A DNA stretch of 64,000 nucleotides, from assembly GCA_947184155.2 (NCBI GenBank), contig CAMXCT020001013.1:116001-180000 (forward strand), written 5' to 3'. Shown one piece after another: positions 29,139-49,041 of this stretch. The notes under the pieces are model-generated. The model saw only the letters and a program-made list of their open reading frames with translations, ran no database searches and was not told where the DNA came from. The DNA is from Cladocopium goreaui. Taxonomy: Eukaryota > Sar > Dinophyceae > Suessiales > Symbiodiniaceae. A program made the translations under genes and the position numbers. Positions within the stretch are counted from its first letter, which is position 1; the number at the start of each line of letters is the position of its first letter.

Positions 29139-29159
29139 TAATGTTGGTTCCTGATTAGT
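29139..29159 (+). repeat. Left terminal inverted repeat
   Basis: The 21 bases are inverted and complementary to 49021-49041 except at position 10. The match stops on the inner side, where the left end goes on as a C-rich tract and the right end does not. Confidence 0.82.
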
Positions 29160-29318
29160 GTGTGGCCCCCCCCTCAAACTATATCTAGACTCTCTTTAAA
29201 GTGGACAATCAAAAAAATTCTTCCCAAAAAAAAAACATATCCTCAATTAAGTAAGGATTTCAATTGGCTACAATAATTGAAAACTAATTACTATTGTTTT
29301 TTTGTCGATGAAGTTGTG

Positions 29319-30196
29319 GTATTTGTAGTACTTGTAGTACTTGTAGTACTTGTAGTATTTGTAGTACTTGTAGTACTTGTAGTACTTGTAGTATTTGTAG
29401 TACTTGTAGTACTTGTAGTACTTGTAGTATTTGTAGTACTTGTAGTACTTGTAGTACTTGTAGTACTTGTAGTACTTGTAGTATTTGTAGTACTTGTAGT
29501 ACTTCTAGTACTTGTAGTACTTGTAGTACTTGTAGTACTTGTAGTACTTGTAGTAATTGTAGTATTTGTAGTACTTGTAGTACTTGTAGTATTTGTAGTA
29601 CTTGTAGTACTTGTAGTACTTGTAGTACTTGTAGTACTTGTAGTACTTGTAGTACTTGTAGTACTTGTAGTACTTGTAGTACTTGTAGTAATTACTTGTA
29701 GTACTTGTAGTGCGTGTAGTACTTGTAGTACTTGTAGTACTTGTAGTACTTGTAGTACTTGTAGTACTTGTAGTACTTGTAGTAGTTGTAGTATTTGTAG
29801 TATTTGTAGTACTTGTAGTACTTGTAGTACTTGTAGTACTTGTAGTACTTGTAGTACTTGTAGTACTTGTAGTACTTGTAGTACTTGTAGTACTGGTAGT
29901 ACTTGTAGTACTTGTAGTACTTGTAGTACTTGTAGTACTTGTAGTACTTGTAGTACTTGTAGTACTTGTAGTACTTGTAGTACTTGTAGTACTTGTAGTA
30001 CTTGTAGTACTTGTAGAACTTGTAGTACTTGTAGTACTTGTAGTACTTGTAGTACTTGTAGTACTTGTAGTACTTGTAGTACTTGTAGTACTTGTAGTAC
30101 TTGTAGTGCTTGTAGTATTTGTAGTACTTGTGGTACTTGTGGTACTTGTAGTACTTGCAGTACTTGTAGTACTAGTAGTACTTGTAGTACTTGTAG
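29319..30196. repeat. 9-bp tandem array (TAGTACTTG)n
   Basis: Nearly 100 copies of a 9-bp unit with scattered point changes. Because the unit is a multiple of three, long open frames of Val/Leu or Cys/Ser/Thr run through it; these are by-products. It lies about 180 bp inside the left terminus and has no counterpart at the right end. A few degenerate units recur before ORF-A (30495-30580) and beside its inverted copy (about 37870-37965). Confidence 0.9.
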
Positions 30197-30470
30197 CTCA
30201 TGCTCAGCCCATGCTCATGCTCAGCCAATGCTCATGCTCAGCCAGCTCATGCTCAGCCAGCTCATGCTCAGCCCATGCTCATGCTCAGCTCATGCTCATG
30301 CTCAGCCAGCTCATGCTCAGCCCATGCTCATGCTCAGCTCATGCTCATGCTCAGCCAGCTCATGCTCAGCCCATGCTCATGCTCAGCTCATGCTCATGCT
30401 CAGCTCATGCTCATGTTCAGCTCATGCCCAGCACATGCTCAGCTCATGCTCAGCCCATGTCTAGCTTAAG
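30196..30470. repeat. CATGCTCAGC-type tandem array 1
   Basis: Irregular repeats of GCTCATGCTCAGCC, mixing 6-bp (CTCATG) and 9-bp steps. It abuts the 9-bp array and stands about 200 bp upstream of ORF-A. It is rich in CTCAG. Confidence 0.9.
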
Positions 30471-30673
30471 GTCAGCTAAAGCTTAGTTCTGGTATGTGTA
30501 GTACTTGTAATTAGCAGTTACTTGTAATTAGTATTTGTTGTATGTTTAGCACTTGGAGTGTTTATAGTTTTGTGTAGTACTTCAGTGTATTTCATTGAGG
30601 TGACTGCTGCAGCTTTAGCACCTCAAATTTTCCTTAGGCTAAGGTGACAGCCCTCAGCTAGTGACTCTAAGCC

Positions 30674-31708
30674 ATGAGCAAGGGAGGCAAGAAGGGCAAG
30701 TGCACTGTCTCAGGCAAGGCCATGTCTCAGAAGGGGCTTGAGGTGCAGGACATCTTCATCCAGAGCAACCCTGAGCATTGGGTGGACTATGCCAGGCTCA
30801 GAACTGAGGAGCCAAAGGTCCATTGCCCTAATGGACACTTAGTTTACCTCAGTCGAATTCCTTGGCAGTCAGGATGCAGGGATTGCTCAGGCGTAAATGG
30901 ATGGCCTCTCTATGTCCTCAGAGAGTACTACTCTCAGATTCTGAACATGGAGCCTTTGCCTTGGCATGCAGCCTGCAAGCCAAAGTTCCACGTTGCTCAG
31001 TTTGTGGGCAAAGGTAGATGGCTTAACGACAGGCAAGCTCAGGGCGAGGGGAATGCTGAGCCTGCTGCTCAGGCTACTCCTCAGCCTGGTGGCAATGCAC
31101 CTCAGCCTCCTCCTGGTATTGGCAAAGGCAAAGGAAAGCCTCAGGCTGCTGTGCAGGCACCTCAGGCACCTGAGCTGCTCATCCTCAAGAGCTTGGACCC
31201 TCAGGAGAAGCTGCCTGCTCTTTTGGCTCATTTGCATCAGGAGCATGATGGTGACTTCTTAGAGGATCTCAGCAAGCTCCAGGACGAGATCCTCGTCTGG
31301 TTGCCTAAGGTGATCCAGGGAAAGGAGGCTCAGATGGCCAGGCATGCTCAGCTTGTCGAAGACGGGAAGATGATGACTGCTGAGATCGTGCAGCTGAATG
31401 ATTTTCAGTCTGGCCTGGTGGAGCTTGCTGAGAAGTTGCAAAAGGAGTCTGAGAAGAAGAAGGAGGCTCAGGAGGAGAAGATTCTCAGTTGCATGGAAAG
31501 CCAGCAGATCGACTTGGACAAGGTGGACTGGGATCAGCTGAAGCTGCTGTGGGAGAAGAAGAAGGCAGCTCAGTCTCAAGGATCCTCAGCATCAGCTGCA
31601 GCACCACCTGCAGCACCAGCTGCAGCACCAGGTGATCTGCTCAGCTCTGTGACTACAGGAGACGTTTCTGAGTCCAATGCCAAGAAGGCTAAGACAGAGT
31701 CCACTTAG
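30674..31708 (+). CDS. ORF-A copy 1, zinc-ribbon protein (344 aa)
   Basis: An intact 344-residue ORF of unknown function. A basic N-terminus (MSKGGKKGKC) is followed by a putative zinc ribbon with ligands Cys51, His55, Cys68 and Cys71 (C-x3-H-x12-C-x2-C) around the signature RIPWQSGCRDC, then a YY...PLPWHAACK box to about residue 110. After it come a Gln/Pro/Gly-rich linker (about 120-165), a long charged helical region with heptad-like spacing (about 180-295, likely coiled coil) and an Ala/Pro-rich tail ending in a small basic patch (AKKAKTEST). ORF-B shares the zinc-ribbon block. I infer a nucleic-acid-binding accessory protein of the element; no known family was recognised. Its codons are saturated with CTCAG/CTGAG. 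Confidence 0.8.
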   Translation: MSKGGKKGKCTVSGKAMSQKGLEVQDIFIQSNPEHWVDYARLRTEEPKVHCPNGHLVYLSRIPWQSGCRDCSGVNGWPLYVLREYYSQILNMEPLPWHAACKPKFHVAQFVGKGRWLNDRQAQGEGNAEPAAQATPQPGGNAPQPPPGIGKGKGKPQAAVQAPQAPELLILKSLDPQEKLPALLAHLHQEHDGDFLEDLSKLQDEILVWLPKVIQGKEAQMARHAQLVEDGKMMTAEIVQLNDFQSGLVELAEKLQKESEKKKEAQEEKILSCMESQQIDLDKVDWDQLKLLWEKKKAAQSQGSSASAAAPPAAPAAAPGDLLSSVTTGDVSESNAKKAKTEST

Positions 31709-31969: not shown

Positions 31970-32220
31970 CAAACTCATGCTCATGCCCATGCTCAGCTCA
32001 TGCTCAGCCCATAATCATGCTCAGCCCATGCTCATGCTCAGCCCATGCTCATGCCCAGCCCATAATCATGCTCAGCCCATGCTCATGCTCAGCCCATGCT
32101 CATGCCCAGCCCATGCTCATGCTCAGCCCATGCTCATGCTCAGCTCATGCCCATGCCCATGCTCAGCACATGCTCAGCACATGCTCAGCTCATGCTCAGC
32201 CCATGTTTAGCTTAAGCCCA
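31970..32220. repeat. CATGCTCAGC-type tandem array 2
   Basis: Lies about 260 bp after the ORF-A stop. It mixes CTCATGCTCAGCC, ATAATCATG and CATGCCCATG steps, and the 210-bp repeats follow it. Confidence 0.85.
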
Positions 32221-32261
32221 GCTAAAGCTCAGGAAACACTGAACCAGCTCATGCCCAGCTT

Positions 32262-33016
32262 GCTGCAATAGTGAACCCAGCAAACAAACCTACTAAAGTG
32301 AAATGGAGCCTCTCCTGGTCCAGAATTTTGGAAAATTGTGGAAAAGCTGTTCTTTAATAAGGGTTTAATAAAGGATTGGCTCCTTTGGGAAAGGCTTGGA
32401 GTTTGAATTTGGCAATTTTGGAAAAGGCTTGCTTCTCTTCTGGGCTTCCAGGAGCTGCTCTGGCACAGCTTGCTGCAATAGTGAACCCAGCAAACAAACC
32501 TACTAAAGGGAAATGGAGCCTCTCCTGGTTGGTCCAGGGCCTTGGAAAATTGTGGAAAAGGTGTTCTTTAATAAGGGTTTAATAAGGGATTGGCTTCTTT
32601 GGGAAAGGCTTGGGCTTTGAATTTGGCAATTTTGGAAAAGGCTTGCTTCTCTTCTGGGCTTCCAGGGGCTGCTCTGGCACAGCTTGCTGCAATAGTGAAC
32701 CCAGCAAACAAACTTACTAAAGTGAAATGGAGCCTCTCCTGGTCCAGGGCCTTGGAAAATTGTGGAAAAGCTGTTCTTTAATAAGGGTTTAATAAGGGAT
32801 TGGCTCCTTTGGGAAAGGCTTGCTTCTCTTCTGGGCTTCCAGGAGCTGCTCTGGCACAGCTTGCTGCAATAGTGAACCCAGCAAACAAACCTACTAAAGG
32901 GAAATGGAGCCTCTCCTGGTCCAGTGTTTTGGAAAATTGTGGAAAAGCTGTTTTTAATAAGGATTTAATAAGGGATTGGCTTCTTTGGGAAAGGTTTGGG
33001 CTTTGAATTTGGCAAT
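32262..33016. repeat. About 210-bp tandem repeats, array 1
   Basis: Roughly three and a half units. Each carries TTGCTGCAATAGTGAACCCA, a CTCTCCTGGTCCAG box and TTAATAAGGGTTTAATAAGG. Short open frames (about 63 codons) recur once per unit on both strands and are by-products of the repeat. The array ends directly at the truncated ORF-A copy 2. Confidence 0.9.
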
Positions 33017-33018
33017 CC

Positions 33019-34005
33019 ATGTCTCAGAAGGGGCTTGAGGTGCAGGACATCTTCATCCAGAGCAACCCTGAGCATTGGGTGGACTATGCCAGGCTCAGAA
33101 CTGAGGAGCCAAAGGTCCATTGCCCTAATGGACACTTAGTTTACCTCAGTCGAATTCCTTGGCAGTCAGGATGCAGGGATTGCTCAGGCGTAAATGGATG
33201 GCCTCTCTATGTCCTCAGAGAGTACTACTCTCAGATTCTGAACATGGAGCCTTTGCCTTGGCATGCAGCCTGCAAGCCAAAGTTCCACGTTGCTCAGTTT
33301 GTGGGCAAAGGTAGGTGGCTTAACGACAGGCAAGCTCAGGGCGAGGGGAATGCTGAGCCTGCTGCTCAGGCTACTCCTCAGCCTGGTGGCAATGCACCTC
33401 AGCCTCCTCCTGGTATTGGCAAAGGCAAAGGAAAGCCTCAGGCTGCTGTGCAGGCACCTCAGGCACCTGAGCTGCTCATCCTCAAGAGCTTGGACCCTCA
33501 GGAGAAGCTGCCTGCTCTTTTGGCTCATTTGCATCAGGAGCATGATGGTGACTCCTTAGAGGATCTCAGCAAGCTCCAGGACGAGATCCTCGTCTGGTTG
33601 CCTAAGGTGATCCAGGGAAAGGAGGCTCAGATGGCCAGGCATGCTCAGCTTGTCGAAGACGGGAAGATGATGACTGCTGAGATCATGCAGCTGAATGATT
33701 TTCAGTCTGGCCTGGTGGAGCTTGCTGAGAAGTTGCAAAAGGAGTCTGAGAAGAAGAAGGAGGCTCAGGAGGAGAAGATTCTCAGTTGCATGGAAAGCCA
33801 GCAGATCGACTTGGACAAGGTGGACTGGGATCAGCTGAAGCTGCTGTGGGAGAAGAAGAAGGCAGCTCAGTCTCAAGGATCCTCAGCATCAGCTGCAGCA
33901 CCACCTGCAGCACCAGCTGCAGCACCAGGTGATCTGCTCAGCTCTGTGACTACAGGAGACGTTTCTGAGTCCAATGCCAAGAAGGCTAAGACAGAGTCCA
34001 CTTAG
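33019..34005 (+). CDS. ORF-A copy 2, lacking the first 16 residues (328 aa)
   Basis: Almost identical to copy 1 from its Met17 on, with two visible changes (Phe to Ser near residue 195 and Val to Met near 240 of copy 1). The 210-bp repeat array is fused to it at CCATGTCTCAG, so the native promoter and the basic N-terminus are gone but a start codon remains. The zinc ribbon and helical region are intact. It is followed by the same 3' region, CATGCTCAGC array and 210-bp array as copy 1, which makes it the second unit of a segmental tandem duplication of about 2.3 kb. Confidence 0.75.
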   Translation: MSQKGLEVQDIFIQSNPEHWVDYARLRTEEPKVHCPNGHLVYLSRIPWQSGCRDCSGVNGWPLYVLREYYSQILNMEPLPWHAACKPKFHVAQFVGKGRWLNDRQAQGEGNAEPAAQATPQPGGNAPQPPPGIGKGKGKPQAAVQAPQAPELLILKSLDPQEKLPALLAHLHQEHDGDSLEDLSKLQDEILVWLPKVIQGKEAQMARHAQLVEDGKMMTAEIMQLNDFQSGLVELAEKLQKESEKKKEAQEEKILSCMESQQIDLDKVDWDQLKLLWEKKKAAQSQGSSASAAAPPAAPAAAPGDLLSSVTTGDVSESNAKKAKTEST

Positions 34006-34269: not shown

Positions 34270-34500
34270 ACTCATGCTCATGCCCATGCTCAGCTCATGC
34301 TCAGCCCATAATCATGCTCAGCCCATGCTCATGCTCATGCCCAGCCCATAATCATGCTCAGCCCATGCTCATGCTCAGCCCATGCTCATGCCCAGCCCAT
34401 GCTCATGCTCAGCCCATGCTCATGCTCAGCTCATGCCCATGCCCATGCTCAGCACATGCTCAGCACATGCTCAGCTCATGCTCAGCCCATGTTTAGCTTA
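34270..34500. repeat. CATGCTCAGC-type tandem array 3
   Basis: The counterpart of array 2 behind ORF-A copy 2, slightly shorter. Confidence 0.85.
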
Positions 34501-34544
34501 AGCCCAGCTAAAGCTCAGGAAACACTGAACCAGCTCATGCCCAG

Positions 34545-36180
34545 CTTGCTGCAATAGTGAACCCAGCAAACAAACCTACTAAAGTGAAATGGAGCCTCTC
34601 CTGGTCCAGAATTTTGGAAAATTGTGGAAAAGCTGTTCTTTAATAAGGGTTTAATAAAGGATTGGCTCCTTTGGGAAAGGCTTGGGCTTTGAATTTGGCA
34701 ATTTTGGAAATGGCTTGCTTCTCTTCTGGGCTTCCAGGAGCTGCTCTGGCACAGCTTGCTGCAATAGTGAACCCAGCAAACAAACCTACTAAAGTGAACT
34801 GGAGCCTCTCCTGGTCCAGGGCCTTGGAAAATTGTGGAAAAGCTGTTCTTTAATAAGGGTTTAATAAGGGATTGGCTTCTTTGGGAAAGGCTTGGGCTTT
34901 GAATTTGGCAATTTTGGAAATGGCTTGCTTCTCTTCTGGGCTTCCAGGGGCTGCTCTGGCACAGCTTGCTGCAATAGTGAACCCAGCAAACAAACTTACT
35001 AAAGTGAAATGGAGCCTCTCCTGGTCCAGGGCCTTGGAAAATTGTGGAAAAGCTGTTCTTTAATAAGGGTTTAATAAAGGATTGGCTCCTTTGGGAAAGG
35101 CTTGGACTTTGAATTTGGCAATTGCCATTGGAAAAGGCTTGCTTCTATTCTGGGCTTCCAGGAGCTGCTCTGGCACAGCTTGCTGCAATAGTGAACCCAG
35201 CAAACAAACCTACTAAAGTGAAATGGAGCCTCTCCTGGCCCAGGGTTTTGGAAAATTGTGGAAAAGCTGTTCTTTAATAAGGGTTTAATAAAGGATTGGC
35301 TCCTTTGGGAAAGGCTTGGAGTTTGAATTTGGCATTTTTGGAAATGGCTTGCTTCTCTTCTGGGCTTCCCGGGGCTGCTCTGGCACAGCTTGCTGCAATA
35401 GTGAACCCAGCAAACAAACTTACTAAAGTGAAATGGAGCCTCTCCTGGTCCAGGGCCTTGGAAAATTGTGGAAAAGCTGTTCTTTAATAAGGGTTTAATA
35501 AGGGATTGGCTCCTTTGGGAAAGGCTTGGGCTTTGAATTTGGCAATTTTGGAAAAGGCTTGCTTCTCTTCTGGGCTTCCAGGAGCTGCTCTGGCACAGCT
35601 TGCTGCAATAGTGAACCCAGCAAACAAACCTACTAAAGTGAACTGGAGCCTCTCCTGGTCCAGGGCCTTGGAAAATTGTGGAAAAGCTGTTCTTTAATAA
35701 GGGTTTAATAAGGGATTGGCTTCTTTGGGAAAGGCTTGGAGTTTGAATTTGGCAATTTTGGAAAAGGCTTGCTTCTCTTCTGGGCTTCCCGGGGCTGCTC
35801 TGGCACAGCTTGCTGCAATAGTGAACCCAGCAAACAAACTTACTAAAGTGAAATGGAGCCTCTCCTGGTCCAGGGCCTTGGAAAATTGTGGAAAAGCTGT
35901 TCTTTAATAAGGGTTTAATAAGGGATTGGCTCCTTTGGGAAAGGCTTGGAGTTTGAATTTGGCAATTGCCTTTGGAAAAGGCTTGCTTCTCTTCTGGGCT
36001 TCCAGGAGCTGCTCTGGCACAGCTTGCTGCAATAGTGAACCCAGCAAACAAACCTACTAAAGGGAAATGGAGCCTCTCCTGGTCCAGTGTTTTGGAAAAT
36101 TGTGGAAAAGCTGTTTTTAATAAGGATTTAATAAGGGATTGGCTTCTTTGGGAAAGGTTTGGGCTTTGAATTTGGCAATC
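34545..36180. repeat. About 210-bp tandem repeats, array 2
   Basis: About eight units with a period of 210 or 214 bp. It has the same end junction onto CCATGTCTCAG of an ORF-A copy as array 1. The minus strand is open for 370 codons across it, a frame made by the repeat. Confidence 0.9.
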
Positions 36181-36181
36181 C

Positions 36182-36440
36182 ATGTCTCAGAAGGGGCTTG
36201 AGGTGCAGGACATCTTCATCCAGAGCAACCCTGAGCATTGGGTGGACTATGCCAGGCTCAGAACTGAGGAGCCAAAGGTCCATTGCCCTAATGGACACTT
36301 AGTTTACCTCAGTCGAATTCCTTGGCAGTCAGGATGCAGGGATTGCTCAGGCGTAAATGGATGGCCTCTCTATGTCCTCAGAGAGTACTACTCTCAGATT
36401 CTGAACATGGAGCCTTTGCCTTGGCATGCAGCCTGCAAGC
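36182..36440 (+). pseudogene. ORF-A fragment (copy 3, 5' part only)
   Basis: Carries the MSQKGLEVQ start through the zinc ribbon to HAACK, then breaks off at 36440 where an inverted copy of the ORF-A 3' region begins (ATGATTATGGG and on). The frame ends six codons later. It is the third unit of the duplication, cut by an inversion breakpoint. Confidence 0.8.
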
Positions 36441-36741
36441 ATGATTATGGGTTGCTCTGAACTGAGCATGGGCATGAGCATGAGTTTGTTGTCTCGCTGC
36501 TGAAAGCTGAGCTTGCACTCAAATCAAAGTGCTTGCAACACTTCCAAGAATCACTATATGTATAATTAATATATGTACAATGACAAATCTCATATGATAG
36601 GTGCTGAGTCTAAATACATCTCTATCCTATCACCTCCAGTTCCCTTGCAAAGCTGGTGCTGCATTTTGCACCTCTATCGCCTCAGCTCTTGTCTGAGCTT
36701 CAAAAACAGGCAGCAGCCTAAGCACATCTCCTTAGAGAGTG

Positions 36742-37776
36742 CTAAGTGGACTCTGTCTTAGCCTTCTTGGCATTGGACTCAGAAACATCTCCTGTAGTCA
36801 CAGAGCTGAGCAGATCACCTGGTGCTGCAGCTGGTGCTGCAGGTGGTGCTGCAGCTGATGCTGAGGATCCTTGAGACTGAGCTGCCTTCTTCTTCTCCCA
36901 CAGCAGCTTCAGCTGATCCCAGTCCACCTTGTCCAAGTCGATCTGCTGGCTTTCCATGCAACTGAGAATCTTCTCCTCCTGAGCCTCCTTCTTCTTCCCA
37001 GACTCCTTTTGCAACTTCTCAGCAAGCTCCACCAGGCCAGACTGAAAATCATTCAGCTGCATGATCTCAGCAGTCATCATCTTCCCGTCTTCGACAAGCT
37101 GAGCATGCCTGGCCATCTGAGCCTCCTTTCCCTGGATCACCTTAGGCAACCAGACGAGGATCTCGTCCTGGACCTTGCTGAGATCCTCTAAGGAGTCACC
37201 ATCATGCTCCTGATGCAAATGAGCCAAAAGAGCAGGCAGCTTCTCCTGAGGGTCCAAGCTCTTGAGGTTGAGCAGCTCAGGTGCCTGAGGTGCCTGCACA
37301 GCAGCCTGAGGCTTTCCTTTGCCTTTGCCAATACCAGGAGGAGGCTGAGGTGCATTGCCACCAGGCTGAGGAGTAGCCTGAGCAGCAGGCTCAGCATTCC
37401 CCTCGCCCTGAGCTTGCCTGTCGTTAAGCCATCTACCTTTGCCCACAAACTGAGCAACGTGGAACTTTGGCTTGCAGGCTGCATGCCAAGGCAAAGGCTC
37501 CATGTTCAGAATCTGAGAGTAGTACTCTCTGAGGACATAGAGAGGCCATCCATTTACGCCTGAGCAATCCCTGCATCCTGACTGCCAAGGAATTCGACTG
37601 AGGTAAACTAAGTGTCCATTAGGGCAATGGACCTTTGGCTCCTCAGTTCTGAGCCTGGCATAGTCCACCCAATGCTCAGGGTTGCTCTGGATGAAGATGT
37701 CCTGCACCTCAAGCCCCTTCTGAGACATGGCCTTGCCTGAGACAGTGCACTTGCCCTTCTTGCCTCCCTTGCTCAT
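36742..37776 (-). CDS. ORF-A copy 4, inverted, full length (344 aa)
   Basis: Same length and start as copy 1 but on the minus strand, with a few substitutions (for example Ile to Asn in the LLILKSL region, and ESEKKK to ESGKKK). The inverted segment includes the copy-1 type upstream region (37777-37980) with its CTAAG/CTCAG-dense leader and degenerate 9-bp units, so this copy keeps a native 5' region as copy 1 does. All three long ORF-A copies stay open despite the rearrangements, which suggests recent amplification, selection, or both. Confidence 0.8.
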   Translation of the reverse strand: MSKGGKKGKCTVSGKAMSQKGLEVQDIFIQSNPEHWVDYARLRTEEPKVHCPNGHLVYLSRIPWQSGCRDCSGVNGWPLYVLREYYSQILNMEPLPWHAACKPKFHVAQFVGKGRWLNDRQAQGEGNAEPAAQATPQPGGNAPQPPPGIGKGKGKPQAAVQAPQAPELLNLKSLDPQEKLPALLAHLHQEHDGDSLEDLSKVQDEILVWLPKVIQGKEAQMARHAQLVEDGKMMTAEIMQLNDFQSGLVELAEKLQKESGKKKEAQEEKILSCMESQQIDLDKVDWDQLKLLWEKKKAAQSQGSSASAAAPPAAPAAAPGDLLSSVTTGDVSESNAKKAKTEST

Positions 37777-38009: not shown

Positions 38010-38100
38010 GCTGGGCATGAGCCCTTGCTCATGCTCAGCCCATGCTCATGCTCAGCTCATGCTCATGCCCATGCTCAGCCCATGTTTAGCTTAAGCCCAG
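38010..38100. repeat. CATGCTCAGC-type tandem array 4
   Basis: A short remnant between the inverted ORF-A copy and the next 210-bp array. Confidence 0.75.
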
Positions 38101-38129: not shown

Positions 38130-39130
38130 ATGCCCAGCTTGCTGCAATAGTGAACCCAGCAAACAAACCTACTACGGTGAAATGGAGCCTCTCCTGGTCC
38201 AGGGTTTTGGAAAATTGTGGAAAAGCTGTTCTTTAATAAGGGTTTAATAAAGGATTGGCTCCGTTGGGAAAGGCTTGGAGTTTGAATTTGGCAATTTTGG
38301 AAATGGCTTGCTTCTCTTCTGGGCTTCCAGGAGCTGCTCTGGCACAGTTTGCTGCAATAGTGAACCCAGCAAACAAACCTACTAAAGGGAAATGGAGCCT
38401 CTCCTGGTCCAGTCTTTTGGAAAATTGTGGAAAAGCTGTTTTTAATAAGGATTTAATGAGGGGTTGGCTTCTTTGGGAAAGGCTTGGGGTTTGAATTTGG
38501 CAATTGCCTTTGGAAAAGGCTTGCTTCTCTTCTGGGCTTCCAGGAGCTGTTCTGGCACAGCTTGCTGCAATAGTGAACCCAGCAAACAAACTTACTTAAG
38601 GGAAATGGAGCCTCTCCTGGTCCAGTCTTTTGGAAAATTGTGGAAAAGCTGTTTTTAATAAGGATTTAATGAGGGGTTGGCTTCTTTGGGAAAGGCTTGG
38701 AATTTGAATTTGGCAATTGCCTTTGGAAAAGGCTTGCTTCTCTTCTGGGCTTCCAGGGGCTGCTCTGGCACAGCTTGCTGCAATGCTGCAATAGTGAGCC
38801 CAGCAAACAAACCTACTAAAGTGAAATAGAGCCTCTCCTGGTCCATGGTTTTGGAAAATTGTGGAAAAGCTGTTCTTTAATAAGGGTTTAATAAGGGATT
38901 GAGTCCTTTGGGAAAGGCTTGGGGTTTGAATTTGGCAATTGCCTTTGGAAAAGGCTTGCTTCTCTTCTGAGCTTCCAGGAGCTGCTCTGGCACAGCTTGC
39001 TGCAATAGTGAGCCCAGCAAACAAACCTACTAAAGAGAAATGGAGCCTCTCCTGGTCCATCTCTGCTCAGAAAATTGTAGAAAAGCTGTTCTGTAATAAT
39101 GGTTTAATAAGGGGTTGGCTCCTTTGGGAA
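38130..39130. repeat. About 210-bp tandem repeats, array 3
   Basis: About four and a half units, more diverged than array 2. One unit carries a local doubling of GCTGCAAT. It ends upstream of ORF-B. Confidence 0.85.
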
Positions 39131-39351: not shown

Positions 39352-40542
39352 ATGGGCAAGAAGACTTTCAAGGGCGGCTTCACTCAGCTGATACAAGAGG
39401 TTGGAACAGACCCTGAGGTCACAGATCTGTTTCCTCAGCCTGATCCTGCTGCCACAGTGCCCTTTCCAAGAATTCTCAGAGAGCCTAGCATCTATTGTCC
39501 TAAGGGGCATCCTTTGAAGCTAGGTCGGCTTCCTTGGCAATCCAGCTGCCACCACTGTCCAGATCACTTAGGCTGGACTCAGAAGGACCTGCAGATGTAC
39601 TACCTGCATATGCTGCAGATGAATCCTTTGCCATGGGGCGAGCTGGTGAAGCATCCTTTCCAGGAAGCTCAGTTTATGGATCTGCTCAGAGAAGATTACT
39701 ATAAAGCTGAGGGAGGTGGCAAAAGTCAGCAAGGGAAGGGCCAAGGCTCAGGCTCCTCTGAGCAACCTTTGAAGCCTCAGCCTCCTTCAAGCGTGCTGAC
39801 ATCTCAAGAATCTCAGACTGACTTTGAAGATGTCTTCATGCAGCCAGGCTACTACCTCAACGCCCTTGAGAAGCTGGACCCTCAGGGAGAAGCTCAGAAG
39901 TTGTTGTCGAAGTTGAAGGAATCTCAGCACATGGAAGAGCTGAGAGATTCAAAGCAACTGGGCTCAGCTGTGAAGAATGTCCAACAGCAGATCAAAAGAA
40001 TTGCAATGGCTCAGGACATCCAGCAGGAGTGCATTGTCAGGTTGAAATGCGACCTTGAGACCATGCAAGCTCAGCAAGCTCAGAACGAGCTCTTGATCAC
40101 TGAGCTGAGCAGCCAAGCTGATGTACTCTTCGCAGCAGCTGAGGGTGAAGAGGAAGTTTGGGAGGCAGAGGAGAGACAAATGGAGGCACTCCTTGAAGTC
40201 ATGCAAAAGATGAACCTCAGCCCAGAGGCACTGCAAGAGTTGCTCAGTAGGCGAGGAAAGGCCTCTCAGTCTTCCAAGGAGAGTGACCAGGCAAAGCCTT
40301 CTCAGCAGACTCTGCAGCAGGAGGTGACTCAGCAGACTGTGGAGAAGGAGTTGTCTGAGCAGTGCTTGCAGCCAAAGCCTTCTCAGCAGACTGCGCAGGA
40401 GGAGGTGCCTCAGCAGACTGTGGAGCTTGAGGCTTGTCAGAAAAATGCTTTCCAACAGTTTCTGTTTGAGGAGGATACTGCACAGCCAGCGTACTCTCAG
40501 CAAACTGTACAGCCAGAGTCTCCTGAACCTGAGGAGTATTAA
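39352..40542 (+). CDS. ORF-B, diverged zinc-ribbon protein (396 aa)
   Basis: Paralogue of ORF-A in its N-terminal 110 residues. Cys49, His53, Cys66 and Cys69 have the same C-x3-H-x12-C-x2-C spacing, and LGRLPWQSSCHHC and MNPLPW match RIPWQSGCRDC and MEPLPW. The rest differs: a coiled-coil-like middle (about 150-300) and a C-terminal Gln/Glu/Ser/Pro repeat region in which SQQT-V-x-E-like units recur. The start MGKKTFKGG resembles the basic ORF-A start, and no better upstream Met is seen. It lies alone on the plus strand between two repeat arrays. The function is unknown; DNA binding is inferred only from the ribbon. Confidence 0.75.
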   Translation: MGKKTFKGGFTQLIQEVGTDPEVTDLFPQPDPAATVPFPRILREPSIYCPKGHPLKLGRLPWQSSCHHCPDHLGWTQKDLQMYYLHMLQMNPLPWGELVKHPFQEAQFMDLLREDYYKAEGGGKSQQGKGQGSGSSEQPLKPQPPSSVLTSQESQTDFEDVFMQPGYYLNALEKLDPQGEAQKLLSKLKESQHMEELRDSKQLGSAVKNVQQQIKRIAMAQDIQQECIVRLKCDLETMQAQQAQNELLITELSSQADVLFAAAEGEEEVWEAEERQMEALLEVMQKMNLSPEALQELLSRRGKASQSSKESDQAKPSQQTLQQEVTQQTVEKELSEQCLQPKPSQQTAQEEVPQQTVELEACQKNAFQQFLFEEDTAQPAYSQQTVQPESPEPEEY

Positions 40543-40616: not shown

Positions 40617-40800
40617 TGCTCAGCTCATGCTCAGCCCATGCTCATGCTCAGCCCATGCTCATGCTCAGCCAGCTCGTGCTCAGCCCATGCTCATGCTCAG
40701 CTCATGCTCATGCTCAGCTCATGCTCATGCTCAGCTCATGCTCATGCTCATGCTCAGCTCATGCCCAGGACATGCTCATGCTCAGCTGCTGCTCCTGCTA
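40617..40800. repeat. CATGCTCAGC-type tandem array 5
   Basis: Follows the ORF-B stop by about 75 bp, the same layout as behind ORF-A. Confidence 0.85.
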
Positions 40801-41332
40801 AGCCATTTTGCCTTTTCTTTTTCTTCCTCTTCTTCCCCTTTTTTATTGTGGATGGGGTTTCATGTAGGAGTAATTAGACTTGTGCCCTGGGAGGACATGC
40901 GGATTTGGATGAGCTCTTTGCTGCTCACTCTGAGAAGAAGGAGAAAAAGTCTGCAGCAGCCTCATCTTCGAAGACTGAGTAGATCAGCGGGACCCTGCAA
41001 CAGAAGAGTGCTGAGATTTTTGAAACTATGCAGCAAAATGTCAAACTGGGCTTGGTGGTGCTTCTGGTACACTTACACATACATATATATATATATATGT
41101 GTATAATTATTGATATCGTTTTAAAAATAGAACTGATGTATATATGTATATATGCATATAAAAGACTTGGAATAACTATAATTAGCATAGATAATGTTTT
41201 GATTCATGTATGTATACATACCTTTCTGTTGCTCAGGTGTCCTTCTTTTTCTTTCTTCAGCTGACTTAGCATGTCCATTGTTTGGATGAGCATGCTTGGA
41301 TTCTTTCTGCATTGCCTCAGCAAAGTAACAGC

Positions 41333-41854: not shown

Positions 41855-42060
41855 AGCAAACTCATGCTCAGCCCATGCTCATGCTCAGCCCATAATCATG
41901 CTCAGCCCATGCTCATGCTCAGCCCATGCTCATGCTCAGCTCATGCTCATGCTCAGCTCATGCTCATGCTCATGTTCATGCTCATGCTCAGCTCATGCTC
42001 ATGCTCATGCTCAGCACATGCTCAGCACATGCTCAGCTCATGCTCAGCCCATGTTTAGCT
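41855..42060. repeat. CATGCTCAGC-type tandem array 6
   Basis: Precedes the longest 210-bp array and resembles arrays 2 and 3. Confidence 0.85.
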
Positions 42061-42099
42061 TAAGCTCTGCTAAAGCTCAAGAAACACTGAACCAGCTCA

Positions 42100-43648
42100 T
42101 GCCCAGCTTGCTGCAATAGTGAACCCAGCAAACAAACCTACTAAAGTGAAATGGAGCCTCTCCTGGTCCAGGGCCTTGGAAAATTGTGGAAAAGCTGTTC
42201 TTTAATAAGGGTTTAATAAGGGATTTGCTCCTTTGGGAAAGGCTTGGAGTTCGAATTTGGCAATTGCTTTTGGAAAAGGCTTGCTTCTCTTTTGGGCTTC
42301 CAGGAGCTGCTCTGGCACAGCTTGCCACAATAGTGAACCCAGCAAACAAACCTACTAAAGTGAAATGGAGCCTCTCCTGGTCCAGGGCCTTGGAAAATTG
42401 TGGAAAAGCTGTTCTTTAATAAGGGTTTAATAAGGGGTTGGCTCCTTTGGGAAAGGCTTGGAGTTTGAATTTGGCAATTGCCTTTGGAAAGGCTTGCTTC
42501 TCTTCTGGGCTTCCAGGGGCTGCTCTGGCACAGCTTGCTGCAATAGTGCCCAGAGCCCAGCAAACTAAACCTACTAAAATGGATGGAGCCTCTCCTGGTC
42601 CAGGGCCTTGGAAAATTGTGGAAAAGCTGTTCTTTAATAAGGGTTTAATAAGGGATTGGCTCCTTTGGGAAAGGCTTGGGGTTTGAATTTGGCAATTGCC
42701 TTTGGAAAAGGCTTGCTTCTCTTCTGGGCTTCCAGGAGCTGCTCTGGCACAGCTTGCTGCAATAGTGAACCCAGCAAACAAACCAACTAAAGTGAAATGG
42801 AGCCTCACCTGGTCCAGGGCCTTGGAAAATTGTGGAAAAGCTGTTCTTTAATAAGGGTTTTATAAAGAATTGGCTCCTTTGGGAAAGGCTTGGAGTTTTA
42901 ATTTGGCAATTGCCTTTGGAAAAGGCTTGCTTCTCTTCTGGGCTTCCAGGAGCTGCTCTGGCACAGCTCGCTGCAATAGTGAACCCAGCAAACAAACTTA
43001 CTAAAGTGAAATGCAGCCTCTCCTGCTCCAGGGCCTTGGAAAATTGTGGAAAAGCTGTTCTTTAATAAGGGTTTAATAAGGGATTGGCTCCTTTGGGAAA
43101 GGCTTGGAGTTCGAATTTGGCAATTGCCTTTGGAAAAGGCTTGCTTCTCTTCTGAGCTTCCAGGAGCTGCTCTGGCACAGCTTGCTGCAATAGTGAACCC
43201 AGCAAACAAACCTACTAAAGAGAAATGGAGCCTCTCCTGGTCCAGGGCCTTGGAAAATTGTGGAAAAGCTGTTCTTTAATAACGGTTTAATAAGGGATTG
43301 GCTTCTTTGGGAAAGGCTTGGACTTTGAATTTGGCAATTGCCTTTGGAAAAGGCTTGCTTCTCTTCTGGGCTTCCAGGAGCTGCTCTGGCACAGCTTGCT
43401 GCAATAGTGAACCCAGCAAACAAACTTACTAAAGTGAAATGGAGCCTCTCCTGGTCCAGGGCCTTGGAAAATTGTGGAAAAGCTGTTCTTTAATAAGGGT
43501 TTAATAAAGAATTGGCTCCTTTGGGAAAGGCTTGGAATTTGAATTTGGCAATTGCCTTTGGAAAAGGCTTGCTTCTCTTCTGGGCTTCCAGGGGCTGCTC
43601 TGGTACAGCTTGCTGCAATAGTGAACCCAGCAAACAAACCTACTAAAG
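42100..43648. repeat. About 210-bp tandem repeats, array 4
   Basis: About seven units with a period near 214 bp, reading directly into the transposase ORF. The change from repeat to unique coding sequence is at ACTAAAGTGAGATGGGCTG (about 43640). The last unit may hold the transposase promoter or 5' untranslated region. Confidence 0.9.
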
Positions 43649-46254
43649 TGAGATGGGCTGATGTGTTCTTTTGCTGTGAGGCTTGCAAGCAAAGAAGATT
43701 GGTAGGTGGAGGTCTTGAGTCTCCACCTGGTAAAGATTCTACTCCCAATGCAAAAGGAGCACTTGCATCTCCTCCAAGCTCAGAAAAGAAGCAATTCTCC
43801 ATGCACAAATTTTTTGGAAGCGCGGAAGCGAAGCAAGCTGCTCAACCAGTGATCAGAAATTTCTTGGAGGAGGCTTCCAAGAGGCAGAGATTGTCCAAGT
43901 GGCAACAGGATTGCATGGCGGAAAGAGATGCTGCACTTGAAAAACTTGTTCAGCTTGAAGCTGAAAAAGCAGAGAATGACGAGGAAGCCATGAAAGCAGC
44001 TTTGAAAAGAAGGAGGCTGGTGAGGGCTGATTCAAAACCATCTCCTCAGTCCTCTTCAGCTCAGAAGAGTAACAGAAAGCGACCTGGAACAGCTACAATG
44101 AGGCTGGAGCTTTCTGCTGAGAAGAAGCTGCAGTATTGTCAGGAGATGAAGGATTGCAAAGATCATTATGCTTCTGCAGCAGACTTCTGGAAAGCTCAGG
44201 TGCAAAAGTATGGCTTGTCCAAACGAAGCCTTATGACTATTGCAAAGAATGGAAAGGCTTGGCAAATGATCAAGGATCAGCCTGCTTTAAGGAACCTTAG
44301 AAAGCAGCAGAAGTCAAAGAGAAAGCGAAACAGTGGAGCTGGCAGAAAAGTTCCTTTCCAGGATGTCGTATCTGCTATCAAGCACTGGCTCTCAGTGGAA
44401 AGAGCTTGTGGTCATACCATTACTCCACAGGATCTCCTCACAGAGTTCATGGCGAGGCTGCAGCTCAGCGCAAACAGGTTGAGAGAAGAAGCACAAAAGC
44501 CAGGTGTGACACAGCTCAAGAAGGCTGAGCTTATGTTGGAGGCTAAGGAGAGACAAGTGAGGAAAGAGAAGCTCCAAAACTCAGCAAGCTATAGAAAGAC
44601 TCAGAGAGGAAGACTGATAGCTTGGATTGGAGCCAAGCATATGTCAACTGAATTAGTGACGAACATTAGTGAAACTGAGTCTCAGACAAGGATCAAACTC
44701 ACATGGCAAGAATTTGATCATACCCTATGGCTGGCAACTTGTGCCTCAGAGCAAACCTTAGCTGAGAGTGGGCGTGTCTCAGCTCCAGCTGATTTTGTGG
44801 CTGCCAGGTCTCAGCTAGTGATCGGTTTTAGTGACCAAGTCCCGCTCTGGGCAAAGGCAACTGGCAGAAAGGCAGTCTTTGCTGAGGAAGAATTGCAAAA
44901 AGCTTCAGATGTTAAGAATTTCTCTGAAGTCAGACAAGCGATTGAAGAGATCATGCAGTCAGACCAACAAGCCAACATGGTAGTGCAGCCATTGAAGAAG
45001 CATGGCTCAGGCAGCTTGCAATCATCAGAGCAAACTCCTCCACCATGCAAAAGAAAGCTGAGCTTTGGCTCAGATACTTCTACACCAGGCAGTGTCGCCA
45101 AGAAGTTAAGCTTTGATGGTGCTGACCCTGAGCCATTGCAAGCTTCTCCAGGCCTTCAGATAGTGCCACCAGCTTCTGAAGCAACTGAGCAGGATGCAGC
45201 ACCTGCATCTGCAGAGACTCAGCAGCAATTGGCCCCAGCCAGTCCTGTGCATGAAACTGAGAACAAAGCTGCGTTGCCTCAGCCAGGGTCCACTACCCTC
45301 ATTGGAGTTTCAGCTGATGAGAGGTTCAGAATAACATACGAAGCCAGACAGCTGCTACATGGTGCCTATGGCACTGAGGAAGTAGTGGGCTCAGTAGGAA
45401 AGGGTCTTCTGGTAGTGCCTGGCCAGTGGGCCAGGCTCAGCAATATTTCAGCCACAGGAACATGGCTGAAGACAGAACGGTTCAAGGTGGGCGACAAAGT
45501 GATTGTGAGGCAGCAAGGCTCCTCAGTAGGAAGAATTCTTGAACCCTACAGAAAGCTGAGGGAGTCCCATCCTGAGCTGGTGGCAGAAGTGGAGATTATG
45601 TCTCAGCCAGCCAGCAATGTGGATTCAGTCATTCTTTCCTGGAAGATTGAAGCTCAAGCTCAGCAGTTTCCCTGCTCTGTGTGGATGCGAGACTGCTTCA
45701 GCTCTGTCTTCTCAGATTCTGCTGCTGAAGCCATGAGCTTGGGCAATCAGCTCAGTTGCCTTGTTGCTCAGAAATGCACATCCATGCTTCAAATTACAGA
45801 TACAGATTTCAGCAAACAGTTTAAGTCACTTGTCAGGAAAAGGTTGACTGAGATGCGGTCTGAGTGGCAAGAGAAACCCAAGGACACACACTCAGTCTGG
45901 AAGGTTGGTGCTTTTGAAATAGTTTCAGCAGTGGTCTTTGCTCAGAAGTTCATGCAGGAGAAAAACCTCTCAGACCAATGGGTCTTGAGAGCAGCTGTGC
46001 GAAATGCTTTGTTGGTCTACAGGCCCAACCTCAGCACAGGCAAGCTGGTACAACTTCTTTCTCAGCCATGGGCCAAAGAGATGGACCTCAGCTGTGGCTC
46101 TAAGAGGTACAACCCCAACTACTTAGCAGACAGATTGAAGTGGCTGGATTCTGAGTCTGTGCCAAGGAAAGCTGACTGGGAGCTCAGTGAGACTGCGAAA
46201 AACATTTCAGACTTGCAGCAATGGGATTATTGGCACCCAGCTGAAGAAGAGTAG
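43552..46254 (+). CDS. DDE_1 / CENP-B-type transposase (up to 900 aa)
   Basis: Predicted transposase of the element. A helix-turn-helix at about residues 190-240 is followed by a CENP-B-like one at about 266-300 (VVSAIKHWLSVERACGHTIT). The catalytic triad I propose is Asp428 (GFSDQVPLW), Asp714 (VWMRDCF) and Asp750 (CTSMLQITDTDFSKQFK). The last box closely follows the TSLLQPLD...FK pattern of pogo/Tigger/jerky DDE_1 proteins, with 36 residues between the second and third Asp. The first two are about 286 apart, much more than usual, because a Ser/Pro/Gln-rich segment (about 480-590) intervenes. The first Met (43552) lies in the 210-bp repeat; Met84 (43801, MHKFFGSAEAK) is a more natural start, but a spliced start is possible. 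Confidence 0.78.
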   Translation: MPLEKACFSSGLPGAALVQLAAIVNPANKPTKVRWADVFFCCEACKQRRLVGGGLESPPGKDSTPNAKGALASPPSSEKKQFSMHKFFGSAEAKQAAQPVIRNFLEEASKRQRLSKWQQDCMAERDAALEKLVQLEAEKAENDEEAMKAALKRRRLVRADSKPSPQSSSAQKSNRKRPGTATMRLELSAEKKLQYCQEMKDCKDHYASAADFWKAQVQKYGLSKRSLMTIAKNGKAWQMIKDQPALRNLRKQQKSKRKRNSGAGRKVPFQDVVSAIKHWLSVERACGHTITPQDLLTEFMARLQLSANRLREEAQKPGVTQLKKAELMLEAKERQVRKEKLQNSASYRKTQRGRLIAWIGAKHMSTELVTNISETESQTRIKLTWQEFDHTLWLATCASEQTLAESGRVSAPADFVAARSQLVIGFSDQVPLWAKATGRKAVFAEEELQKASDVKNFSEVRQAIEEIMQSDQQANMVVQPLKKHGSGSLQSSEQTPPPCKRKLSFGSDTSTPGSVAKKLSFDGADPEPLQASPGLQIVPPASEATEQDAAPASAETQQQLAPASPVHETENKAALPQPGSTTLIGVSADERFRITYEARQLLHGAYGTEEVVGSVGKGLLVVPGQWARLSNISATGTWLKTERFKVGDKVIVRQQGSSVGRILEPYRKLRESHPELVAEVEIMSQPASNVDSVILSWKIEAQAQQFPCSVWMRDCFSSVFSDSAAEAMSLGNQLSCLVAQKCTSMLQITDTDFSKQFKSLVRKRLTEMRSEWQEKPKDTHSVWKVGAFEIVSAVVFAQKFMQEKNLSDQWVLRAAVRNALLVYRPNLSTGKLVQLLSQPWAKEMDLSCGSKRYNPNYLADRLKWLDSESVPRKADWELSETAKNISDLQQWDYWHPAEEE

Positions 46255-46378: not shown

Positions 46379-47821
46379 TTGCTGACCAAACTGGTGATGA
46401 CAAAAAAAAAAGGTGAAGCCAGGAGAGCAGAGAAGCGAAGGAGAGCTGAGGTGAGGACCAAGCTTAGAGGCAAGTTCCTCCAAGCTCTGCAAGAAAAGGT
46501 CAAGTCTCAGAGCAGGCAAGAAGCTTTTGAGGAGATGCAGCCTCAAGCCAGGCAGAAGTCAGGCAAGAAGCCTAGCTTAGTGCTCAAGCCATCTGCTAAG
46601 CTCAAGACCTGTCTCAAGAAGAAGCCAAGTCTCACCTTGAAGGCAAGTGCTGTCGCTAAGAAGGACAAGAAGCAGACAAAGAAGCAAGAAGCAGACAAGC
46701 AAGCAAAGAAGCTGGGTCAGCAAGCTTCCAAAGATCCACTTCCTCCCCTACCTCCTCCAGCAGAAGGTCCTGAGGAAGAAGAACCTCAAGTGGATGAGCT
46801 GCTGCATAAGGAAGTAGCAGTGACTTCAGAGGCTGCAGGAAGGCTCAGCTATGGAAAAAGAGGGAAGCTGACCCACTTAGGCAGCAATGGTTTTTACACC
46901 TTACTTGCTGCCACTGGTACATACCCAGTCAAGAAGGAGTGGCTGCAGCTGCTCTCAGAGAAGCCAATTCCAGAACTTGAGTGGCCAAAGTGGACAAGGA
47001 TGAGCAAGAAGGACTTGCTCCTCATGTTGTCTTGTCTCAGTGCCAATCCTTTAGATATGTTGGGCTTAGAGCCAACCCTCTGGGATACTCAGGCTATAAT
47101 CAAATGCCCTGAGGAGGTTCCAGAACTTGAAGACCAACATATTTGGCTGGGGTGGTTGCTGCTTAGGTGGATGCTCACAAAAAGCCATGAGAAGTTTCCT
47201 GAGGACATGGGAATCACCTGTGTGGATCCTTTGCTTATCTTTTCGATCTTAGAGCAAAAGGCCAATGTGCAGCTCTTGCAAGCACTTAGAGATTCTTTCA
47301 CAGACAAGACCCAGATTCTCCTTATCCCTATCCTCAGAAGCTTTCATTGGACTCTCCTGGTGGCTCAAAGAGATGGCACCCAGAAGCTGCAATGGAGAAG
47401 ATATGACACATTGTCAGTAGAACACGCTGGGTCGCATGCTGCTCAGGAGTTCATCGGCAAGGTGCTAGATCCTGACTTTGTCTTGCCACCCTTGACAAAT
47501 GTGGCAACTCAGCCAGTTGGCTCCAATGCTTGTGGAGCATATTTACTTCATTACCTTGAGCTCGAGCTCAGGCTGTTTCGAGGAGAGCTGCCTTCAGTCT
47601 GGCCTGCTCTGGGCTGGAAGCAGTGGAAGCTTAGGCTCAAGACAGCAGCTGAGAAGCTCTCTGCAGAGCAGAAACTCAAGGCAAAGGAATGCTTAGATAA
47701 AGAGAATTCTGAGAAGAAACAGAGAGATGAAGTAGAGTCCCTGAGGAAGAAAGCTGAGGATAAGCTAGCGAAACTCACCAACATTCCTCTATGGCATACA
47801 TCACAGCCCAGGAAGCTCTGA
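46379..47821 (+). CDS. Ulp1-like C48 cysteine protease (480 aa)
   Basis: The C-terminal half is a SUMO-protease-type (peptidase C48) domain. The catalytic His is at about residue 323 (RSFHWTLLV), Asp at 343 (RRYDTLS), oxyanion Gln at 378 and Cys at 385 (QPVGSNACGAYLL). The N-terminal 110 residues are very Lys-rich and probably bind nucleic acid or target the nucleus. A coiled coil follows the protease. Such domains are often carried by large DNA transposons (CACTA and Mutator relatives), where their role is unsettled. The gene starts 125 bp after the transposase stop on the same strand, so the two could be one transcription unit. Confidence 0.82.
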   Translation: MLTKLVMTKKKGEARRAEKRRRAEVRTKLRGKFLQALQEKVKSQSRQEAFEEMQPQARQKSGKKPSLVLKPSAKLKTCLKKKPSLTLKASAVAKKDKKQTKKQEADKQAKKLGQQASKDPLPPLPPPAEGPEEEEPQVDELLHKEVAVTSEAAGRLSYGKRGKLTHLGSNGFYTLLAATGTYPVKKEWLQLLSEKPIPELEWPKWTRMSKKDLLLMLSCLSANPLDMLGLEPTLWDTQAIIKCPEEVPELEDQHIWLGWLLLRWMLTKSHEKFPEDMGITCVDPLLIFSILEQKANVQLLQALRDSFTDKTQILLIPILRSFHWTLLVAQRDGTQKLQWRRYDTLSVEHAGSHAAQEFIGKVLDPDFVLPPLTNVATQPVGSNACGAYLLHYLELELRLFRGELPSVWPALGWKQWKLRLKTAAEKLSAEQKLKAKECLDKENSEKKQRDEVESLRKKAEDKLAKLTNIPLWHTSQPRKL

Positions 47822-48003
47822 ATAAGAATTCCCAGCGGTTCACTTGGAAGGATTTGTCCCAGGAGGCCACCTTGAAGATCCTCAGCCTCCAGTTCAGCTT
47901 GGGTGTTTGCAGCAAGTGCAGATGGACCTCAGGATGTCTGGAGTGCAGCTCCTATAAGGCCTCCACTCAGAAGCAGCAAAGGCCAAGAAATTGGCTTACT
48001 TGA
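47791..48003 (+). CDS. CSKCR zinc-module frame overlapping the C48 3' end (70 aa)
   Basis: The frame overlaps the last 31 nt of the protease in another frame. It encodes AQEALNKNSQRFTWKDLSQE and then CSKCRWTSGCLECSSYKA, a C-x2-C-x5-C-x2-C module. I recall comparable CSKCR modules at the C-termini of dinoflagellate proteins, including C48-containing ones. It therefore looks like the true C-terminus of the protease, separated by a frameshift, a missed intron or a sequence error. Confidence 0.5.
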   Translation: MAYITAQEALNKNSQRFTWKDLSQEATLKILSLQFSLGVCSKCRWTSGCLECSSYKASTQKQQRPRNWLT

Positions 48004-48371
48004 GCAGAGGACCTGGGTTTCAAAGCATATATTCCATGTTTAGCTCAGGTTTCCTTCGTCTTTCCACCTCAGTCCTTTCTTTTCTCTCTTCCTTTTGGTA
48101 TCTCCACCTTTTTCTTGCTTCTTTGCTTGCTTGGGAAGCGATTGCTGGGACAATGATTTTGCTGCCCAGCCAGGAGAAATCTGGAGACACATTACTCAGC
48201 AAACATGTCATGCTCAGCATCCAAGTTGGTCAGTCTTCAGCAACTCAGTCTCTTGAGCATCCCAAGCCTCAGCAGCTTTTGGGAACTCAAGCCTTCACCC
48301 AGCTTCCTCAGCAACAATCCTTCTTCTGGCGCCATGGGCTTCCAGCTGAAGATGGTGTGCATCTTCTGGGC
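48004..48371. other. Element spacer between C48 gene and last repeat array
   Basis: Contains T/C-rich sequence and a plus-strand open stretch (47991-48407) without recognisable domain; rich in CTCAG. No clear gene seen. Confidence 0.4.
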
Positions 48372-48850
48372 TTCCAGGGGCTGCTCTGGCACAGCTTGCT
48401 GCAATAGTGAACCCAGCAAACAAACCTACTAAAGTGAAATGGAGCCTCTCCTGGTCCAGGGCCTTGGAAAATGGTGGAAAAGCTGTTCTTTAATAAGGGT
48501 TTAATAAGGGATTGGTTCTTTTGGGAAAGGCTTAGAGTTTGAATTTGGCAATTTTGGAAAAGGCTTGCTTCCCTTCTGGGCTTCCAGGGGCTGCTCTGGC
48601 ACAGCTTGCTGCAATAGTGAACCCAGCAAACAAACTTACTGAAGTGAAATGGAGCCTCTCCTGGTCCAGGGCCTTGGAAAATTGTGGAAAAGCTGTTCTT
48701 TAATAAGGGTTTAATAAGGGATTGGTTCTTTTGGGAAGGGCTTGGAGTTTGAATTTGGCAATTTTGGAAATGGCTTGCTTCCCTTCTGGACTTCCAGGGG
48801 CTGCTCTGGCACAGCTTGCTGCAATAGTGAACCTAGCAAACAAACCTACC
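48372..48850. repeat. About 210-bp tandem repeats, array 5 (right subterminal)
   Basis: About two and a half units, the last reading GTGAACCTAGCAAACAAACC and breaking off at 48849. About 170 bp of AT-rich sequence with two diverged core motifs then lead to the right terminus. Confidence 0.85.
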
Positions 48851-49020
48851 TTGACTGAGCTACAGCGTTTTTGAGAAAAAAAAATGCCTCTCAGCAATTA
48901 CAGTTTTTTTTCAAAAAAAAGGCTCTCCCAATTTTGTTTTGCCACAACAGTGAACCCTCCAAACAATACATGAGTTTCAGAACAATTTGGAACAAAATTG
49001 CCACAATAGCGACCCTAGGT

Positions 49021-49041
49021 ACTAATCAGGACCCAACATTA
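49021..49041 (-). repeat. Right terminal inverted repeat
   Basis: ACTAATCAGGACCCAACATT plus A is the reverse complement of the left terminus with one mismatch. Just inside it, near 48998 and 48950, lie two versions of the motif found once per unit in the 210-bp repeats (TTGCCACAATAGCGACCC, TTGCCACAACAGTGAACC). Confidence 0.82.

Follow-up and report, generated by a model that had tools for sequence, protein, structure and literature searches.

A 19.9-kb unit with terminal inverted repeats

We analysed a 64,000-nucleotide stretch of the genome of the dinoflagellate Cladocopium goreaui (contig CAMXCT020001013.1, positions 116,001 to 180,000; G000:C1013:116001-180000, hereafter the window). Genome searches covered the 1.166-Gb assembly of 6,202 contigs. 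Positions 29139-49041 of the window form a unit of 19,903 bp, which is bounded by 20/21-bp inverted ends and contains a transposase gene, a protease gene, a family of zinc-ribbon genes, and several repeat arrays. An earlier note on this DNA had proposed that this is a single multi-gene transposon with TA at its outer ends, and the terminal inverted repeats (TIRs) together with six empty sites bear this out. In all likelihood, the unit is a giant TIR DNA transposon of a dinoflagellate, which inserts at TA and carries a transposase-protease pair and a zinc-ribbon family.

The left TIR (TAATGTTGGTTCCTGATTAGT; 29139..29159, forward strand) and the right TIR (TAATGTTGGGTCCTGATTAGT; 49021..49041, reverse strand) are identical at 20 of 21 positions, and both have TA at the outer end. 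They are the only two matches in the window with up to three mismatches, and 100 shuffles of the window gave no TIR match. The left end is found at seven other loci, and a host repeat is broken exactly at this end of the unit; the 182 bp at the right end are also matched elsewhere. The earlier note had reported an abrupt change in composition as well. GC content is indeed 0.475 inside the unit and 0.418 outside, and the best two change points (30200 and 48400, in 100-bp bins) lie slightly inward of the TIRs; these two points account for only about 13% of the variance.

Two kinds of zinc-ribbon gene are present. Gene A is present as three near-identical copies (99% identity), of which copy 1 (30674..31708, 344 aa) and copy 2 (33019..34005, 328 aa) are on the forward strand and copy 3 (36742..37776, 344 aa, 99%) is inverted, and as a truncated copy on the forward strand (36182..36460). 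Gene B (39352..40542, forward strand, 396 aa) is about 29% identical to gene A, and its relatives cluster near transposase loci. The earlier note had listed two related zinc-ribbon genes. The transposase ORF (43543..46254, forward strand) is 903 aa from stop to stop, with D431, D717, and D753 as candidate catalytic residues. The ORF for a C48/Ulp1-like protease (46379..47821, forward strand, 480 aa) is a separate frame in the window and is fused to the transposase in relatives. An out-of-frame remnant (47740..48003, forward strand) encodes the motif CSKCRW.SGCL.C, which terminates the fused protein in relatives.

Repeat arrays make up 7.5 kb of the unit, in agreement with the several arrays of the earlier note. 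There is one subterminal 9-bp array (TTGTAGTAC, about 98 copies, 29314..30196). It is followed by a 17-bp array of the CATGCTCAGCC type (30196..30459), with further blocks at 31976-32232, 34271-34518, 38020-38084, 40617-40804, and 41861-42079. Finally, there are five blocks of 210-214-bp repeats (32256..32998, 34542-36179, 38135-39132, 42104-43656, and 48363-48849).

Sites without the insertion

The left flank (28939..29138) and the right flank (49042..49241) of the unit belong to one diverged host repeat, which continues from the one to the other and has six paralogues without the insert. To search the genome for empty sites, we joined 200 bp of each flank around one TA. This query gave 12 matches: the two window flanks, four partial matches to the left flank only, and six that cross the junction. 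When realigned, the six loci (L039 to L044) were 68-74% identical to the query and had 2 bp at the insertion point (CA in five of them and TG in the other), and none had a gap exactly at the junction. Their right arms are 55, 45, 18, 14, 55, and 28 alignment columns long. The simplest reading is that the unit inserted precisely into a diverged copy of a host repeat and duplicated a 2-bp TA target. The empty sites link the outer flanks directly, so the whole unit either arrived as one or grew within one insertion. We also looked for element sequence that continues past 29139 or 49041. Both flanks are host sequence that is continuous elsewhere, with one reservation, an array without TIRs on contig C6122 (see below).

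Other copies with the same ends

Across the genome, the TIR pattern had 674 matches (335 + 339), as compared to 0 + 1 in the control. Among the first 100 of these places, with neighbours up to 40 kb away considered, we found 23 inward pairs (361-7,945 bp), one outward pair, and one pair in the same direction. Searches with the ends of the unit gave 453 candidates for the left-end 162 bp and 312 for the right-end 182 bp; in the best 40 of each (including the query itself), the others were 89-92% identical to the left end and 94-96% identical to the right end. TA is present at the outer end of the TIR in all eight left-end loci that we read, one of which is the window (L001). The outer flanks of these loci are dissimilar, though L002 and L007 both lie within ATGC-type microsatellites.

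Four of these loci (L002, L003, L004, and L007) are short copies with both TIRs, 1.2-1.5 kb apart. Three of them (L002, L004, and L007) were read completely; in each, 210-bp repeat units fill the interior between the left and the right end. Exact units of the 9-bp array are present in L002 (5), L003 (27), and L007 (5), and there are none in L004. The ends of the window unit therefore mark a large family, in which TIR copies number in the hundreds and both short derivatives and large forms occur elsewhere in the genome. Partly palindromic AT-rich repeats, with GGTTTATAAACCAACTT- and ATAGTTAATGGGG-like pieces, are visible by eye at L004:2891-2960 and at 49751-49870 in the window; this repeat is possibly a miniature inverted-repeat element (MITE).

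A second complete large element lies at C828:173915-203616 and is 29,702 bp from left TIR to right TIR. Its TIRs differ from those of the window by 1-3 bases; its transposase is only about 59% identical. It contains a 21-bp subterminal array, 248- and 456-bp repeats, a fused ORF of 1,506 codons, and at least four zinc-ribbon genes, each divided over two ORFs, from which we infer an intron in each. With this and the four short copies, other loci with both ends, which the earlier note had suggested looking for, are in hand. The element on C1746 is closely related to the one on C828: ungapped segments on the main diagonal are 98.7-99.9% identical (in a list filtered at 97%), and gapped alignments are 98.9% identical over 5.4 and 3.3 kb. 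It carries the same right TIR as C828; the left end of this copy was not reached. Beyond the right TIR, 2,778 bp of C828 and 5,336 bp of C1746 have no similarity (blastn, E up to 1e-3), which argues that the large form moved independently. Very probably, it has inserted at least twice, and recently. The repeat outside the right TIR of C828 (L032) is itself high-copy, and most of its scored copies start no more than a few bases from the point of insertion; two repeats, both flanked by TA, may thus adjoin there.

These results bear on whether the window unit might be a composite, that is, a host gene cluster that was flanked by chance by the TIRs of two separate short elements and was mobilised once or never. 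The ends are common to many short copies, and the interior of the window unit has no close relative among the scored matches, as a composite would predict. Against this, the empty sites join the outer flanks directly, a comparable gene set lies between comparable ends on C828, and the 210-bp repeats of the short copies recur throughout the interior. The empty sites and the C828 element largely refute a composite, and we consider it improbable.

The transposase

A search with the window transposase gave 1,824 candidates, of which the best 50 were scored; the 49 matches outside the window are 53-66% identical to it. In an alignment of 15 sequences (A1), D431, D717, and D753 are invariant. In an alignment of seven more divergent sequences (A4, in which the others share 30-59% identity with the window), D717 and D753 never vary, and the six sequences that extend to the position of D431 all have it. 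D717 and D753 are separated by 35 residues, and an LQxxD motif is present.

We compared this family by hhalign with eight aligned DDE_1 transposases of this genome (A2, whose loci were found with PF03184). The catalytic block scored 19.7; the highest of 40 column shuffles reached 9.9, and reversal gave 3.5. D717 and D753, the second and third aspartates, are in register in this comparison. This is suggestive of a distant pogo-like enzyme and does not prove it. The earlier note had called this a DDE_1-type, pogo-like transposase; in favour are the aspartate pattern and a profile score that no shuffle reached, and against it is the lack of a Pfam or PDB match. Profiles of A1 and A4 gave nothing usable against the PDB. 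Fifteen family members had only implausible matches in Pfam (the best was Peptidase_M61_N at 0.0075) and no integrase match.

Canonical DDE_1 genes are abundant in the same genome (L045-L062). Among the best 150 of 716 candidates, most are frames of about 300-380 aa, and several are in tandem, about 2 kb apart.

The protease and the fused protein

The earlier note had called the downstream gene a Ulp1-like protease. The window protein itself has no Pfam match and no credible PDB match, so the name holds by way of its relatives. Relatives on C1720 and C567 (E 3e-10 to 7e-10) are above the cut-off of PF02902, and the homologue at L064 scores 35.1 bits against this family (cut-off 20.7). Direct comparison of the window protease with L064 by blastp gave E = 1e-14 at 29% identity. 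The H, D, Q, and C residues of the C48 motif can also be seen by eye. Via these relatives, and only via them, the identity of the window protein as a C48/Ulp1-like protease is supported.

At 15 of the 49 non-window transposase matches, a single frame of 1,501-1,527 aa holds both the transposase and the protease. From the protease side, there were 92 matches outside the window; we tested the best 39, and every one had a transposase match within 3 kb. Relatives of the unit thus encode the transposase and a C48 protease as one protein, often with zinc-ribbon genes nearby. Upstream in L064 and L065 is the transposase motif (L)QLTDTDYSRAFK, and the final motif is CSRCRWT(S/C)GCLSC, so the order of transposase, protease, and zinc motif looks old. 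In L066, a distant member, the transposase and protease ORFs are parted by a stop.

The zinc-ribbon family

When two zinc-ribbon proteins from the window are aligned with four from C828, they share, with small variations, the pattern C-x-x-(x)-H/C ... IPWQSGCxxC ... GW ... YY ... PLPW ... AQF. The zinc motif is followed by a tail that looks like a coiled coil by eye, and some of the proteins have a lysine-rich end. The WQSGCxxC stretch is also present at the C-terminus of the fused protein in C828, C1746, and C5825. A link between the zinc-ribbon proteins and the fused protein is suggested by this stretch, and no more than suggested.

A search with gene B gave 114 matches, of which five are in the window (gene B and four gene-A pieces) and 109 are elsewhere. 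A zinc-ribbon match lies within 10 kb of 39 of the 49 transposase matches and within 20 kb of 41 of them. Conversely, 60 of the 109 zinc-ribbon matches outside the window have a scored transposase or protease match no more than 20 kb away. These counts are lower bounds, as they use the best 50 transposase and the best 39 protease matches.

Two more ORFs from these elements (L037:4765-5406 and C828:184215-184820) end in KSKKAKTEEP, which resembles the end of gene A in the window, and have no obvious zinc ribbon.

Evidence against a giant transposon

Several results weigh against our interpretation. Two of the empty sites are weak (L041 and L042, with right arms of merely 18 and 14 columns), and a third, L043, has a 2-base gap two bases beyond the junction. 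An empty-site search for C828 gave 463 candidates; the 40 that were scored include copies of the flanks, and none has an uninterrupted junction, since the right flank begins another repeat. The same search for L004 found none; its flanks are single-copy, so this is uninformative. There is no second transposase of the window type among the 50 scored of 1,824 candidates (the next best is 60% identical). The window transposase has no match in Pfam or the PDB. In line with the earlier note, we could match the unit to no family. The hhalign probability for a relationship to the DDE_1 alignment is just 2-3%, or 9% for the catalytic block. Almost half of the zinc-ribbon matches outside the window (49 of 109) are over 20 kb from any scored transposase or protease match.

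Duplication of the surrounding DNA also complicates the picture. The left flank of C828 repeats at 100% identity on C5825 and at 99% on C5480, and its right flank repeats at 100% twice on C2946. As the same flanks recur on other contigs, segmental duplication as well as transposition spreads these elements. On C6122 (L069 and L070), three transposase matches are about 15.8 kb apart, in tandem units of zinc-ribbon and transposase-protease genes. We read two of the stretches between these units and found no TIR with up to four mismatches in them; the stretches align at about 98% over long segments.

The C6122 array raises the possibility that the genes for the transposase-protease and the zinc ribbons form a host family, amplified in tandem and only sometimes trapped between TIRs. 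Zinc-ribbon matches that extend over about 100 kb of C5825 (where no right TIR was found within 388001-408000) and the duplications that share the flanks of C828 point the same way. Against this, the enzyme has transposase-like motifs, subfamilies with just 59% protein identity have conserved TIRs in common, and the right flanks of C828 and C1746 are unrelated. We rate a host array as very improbable and retain the giant transposon.

State of the window copy

Compared to intact relatives, the frame in the window has one in-frame stop and two frame changes, which is a further point against our interpretation. These interruptions fall near the C-terminus and where transposase and protease join; within the transposase itself, the frame is open for 903 codons. 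The interruptions could be due to decay, sequencing error, or recoding. Because the transposase-protease frame is interrupted, the window copy is today probably moved in trans or immobile.

We computed dN/dS for nine pairs overall. Between the subfamilies of L010 and L012, it was 0.34. Less favourably, it was 0.45-0.63 among closer copies and 0.9 and 1.4 in two near-identical pairs, which have very few differences. For the window and its relatives, pS is saturated (0.76-0.78) and pN is 0.29. This pattern fits long-term selective maintenance of the genes.

Comparison to known elements

Apart from virus-like elements and fungal Starships, few very large TIR transposons with a set of conserved genes are known. 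Among the closest known elements are pogo and Tc1/mariner (ITm) transposons, with which the unit shares a TA target duplication, short TIRs, two aspartates separated by 35 residues with LQxxD, and short nonautonomous derivatives. The TA duplication expected of such elements is seen in the six empty sites, and TA lies outside every TIR that we read. Such elements are short and have a single transposase gene; the unit differs from them in size (19.9 and 29.7 kb), in having several genes and a fused protease, and in lacking a Pfam match to DDE_1. According to PMC7325037, Tc1/mariner and pogo elements target TA, and Tc1 measures about 1.3 kb and PlantMar 2-6 kb.

In Ginger1, a DDE enzyme already comes with a Ulp1 or OTU protease at its C-terminus; PMC2836005 gives CCGG/CCGT duplications and a size of 2.6-7 kb for these elements. 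The claim of the earlier note that this would be a new kind of element was therefore too strong. As in that description of Ginger1, a DDE-type enzyme and a C-terminal Ulp1 protease are in one protein in the relatives of our unit, and in separate frames in the window. Unlike Ginger1 as described there, which has a Gypsy-type integrase, our unit uses TA, and 15 family members have no integrase match in Pfam. The same source mentions Mutator-like elements that carry Ulp1, so these too are mobile elements with a Ulp1 protease. The Zisupton and Kyakuja (KDZ) elements are also DNA transposons with extra genes; they have duplications of 8 and 7 bp respectively (PMC12730594), as compared to 2 bp here. 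The consulted part of PMC11071213 contains no matching element.

The 2-bp duplication and the lack of a MULE match separate our unit from Mutator-like and CACTA elements. Mutator-like elements have a MULE transposase and a long target duplication (8-11 bp), and CACTA elements have a 3-bp duplication.

We also considered a provirus-like or Polinton-like element, given the size of the unit and its cysteine protease. Polinton/Maverick and other giant transposons are of a comparable size class and have several genes (PMC6431247). Our unit differs in that its four proteins have no credible match in Pfam, PHROGs, or NCBIfam, and hence none to a protein-primed PolB or other polymerase, a capsid, or a retroviral-type integrase. 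A scan of viral contigs with A1 gave 12 stretches that match the pattern, none of which was confirmed as a relative of the transposase, and the target duplication is only 2 bp. A Polinton-like origin is hardly credible.

Searches of open-licence PMC papers found no description of an element like this one among the papers listed. The giant transposon could be either a deeply diverging pogo-like lineage or a superfamily in its own right. We lean slightly towards a new superfamily of giant TA-target dinoflagellate transposons, whose polyprotein would join a divergent transposase of the DDE type to a C48 protease and a zinc module, with a co-mobile and repeatedly duplicated zinc-ribbon family as an accessory toolkit.

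Proposed mechanism

We propose that the transposase uses its N-terminal region to bind the 21-bp TIR, and that this region may bind the subterminal repeats as well. The putative D431-D717-D753 centre would then cut and join at TA, probably by cut and paste, by analogy to pogo/Tc1 enzymes. The protease might separate the fused protein, or it might strip SUMO from the transposase or from host repair factors. The zinc-ribbon proteins are probably accessory DNA-binding or regulatory partners, because they share WQSGCxxC with the C-terminus of the C828-type fused protein.

The unit suggests that a TA-inserting system of the pogo/Tc1 type can carry 20-30 kb, with a protease and a multi-copy family of zinc proteins. 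A single genome offers paralogous empty sites as well as near-identical large copies, so it becomes possible to test what the protease and the zinc proteins contribute to transposition. The element may also help explain the growth and rearrangement of dinoflagellate genomes.

Other features of the window and genome

The dinoflagellate spliced leader has 172 exact matches in the genome and none in the reversed control, which marks the host as a dinoflagellate. Outside the unit, at 60050-62112, are two consecutive compound arrays, each with a 12-bp TCTTCTGGCATA array, then a 40-bp array, and then a GGA array. These look like a duplication of a 1.1-kb unit.

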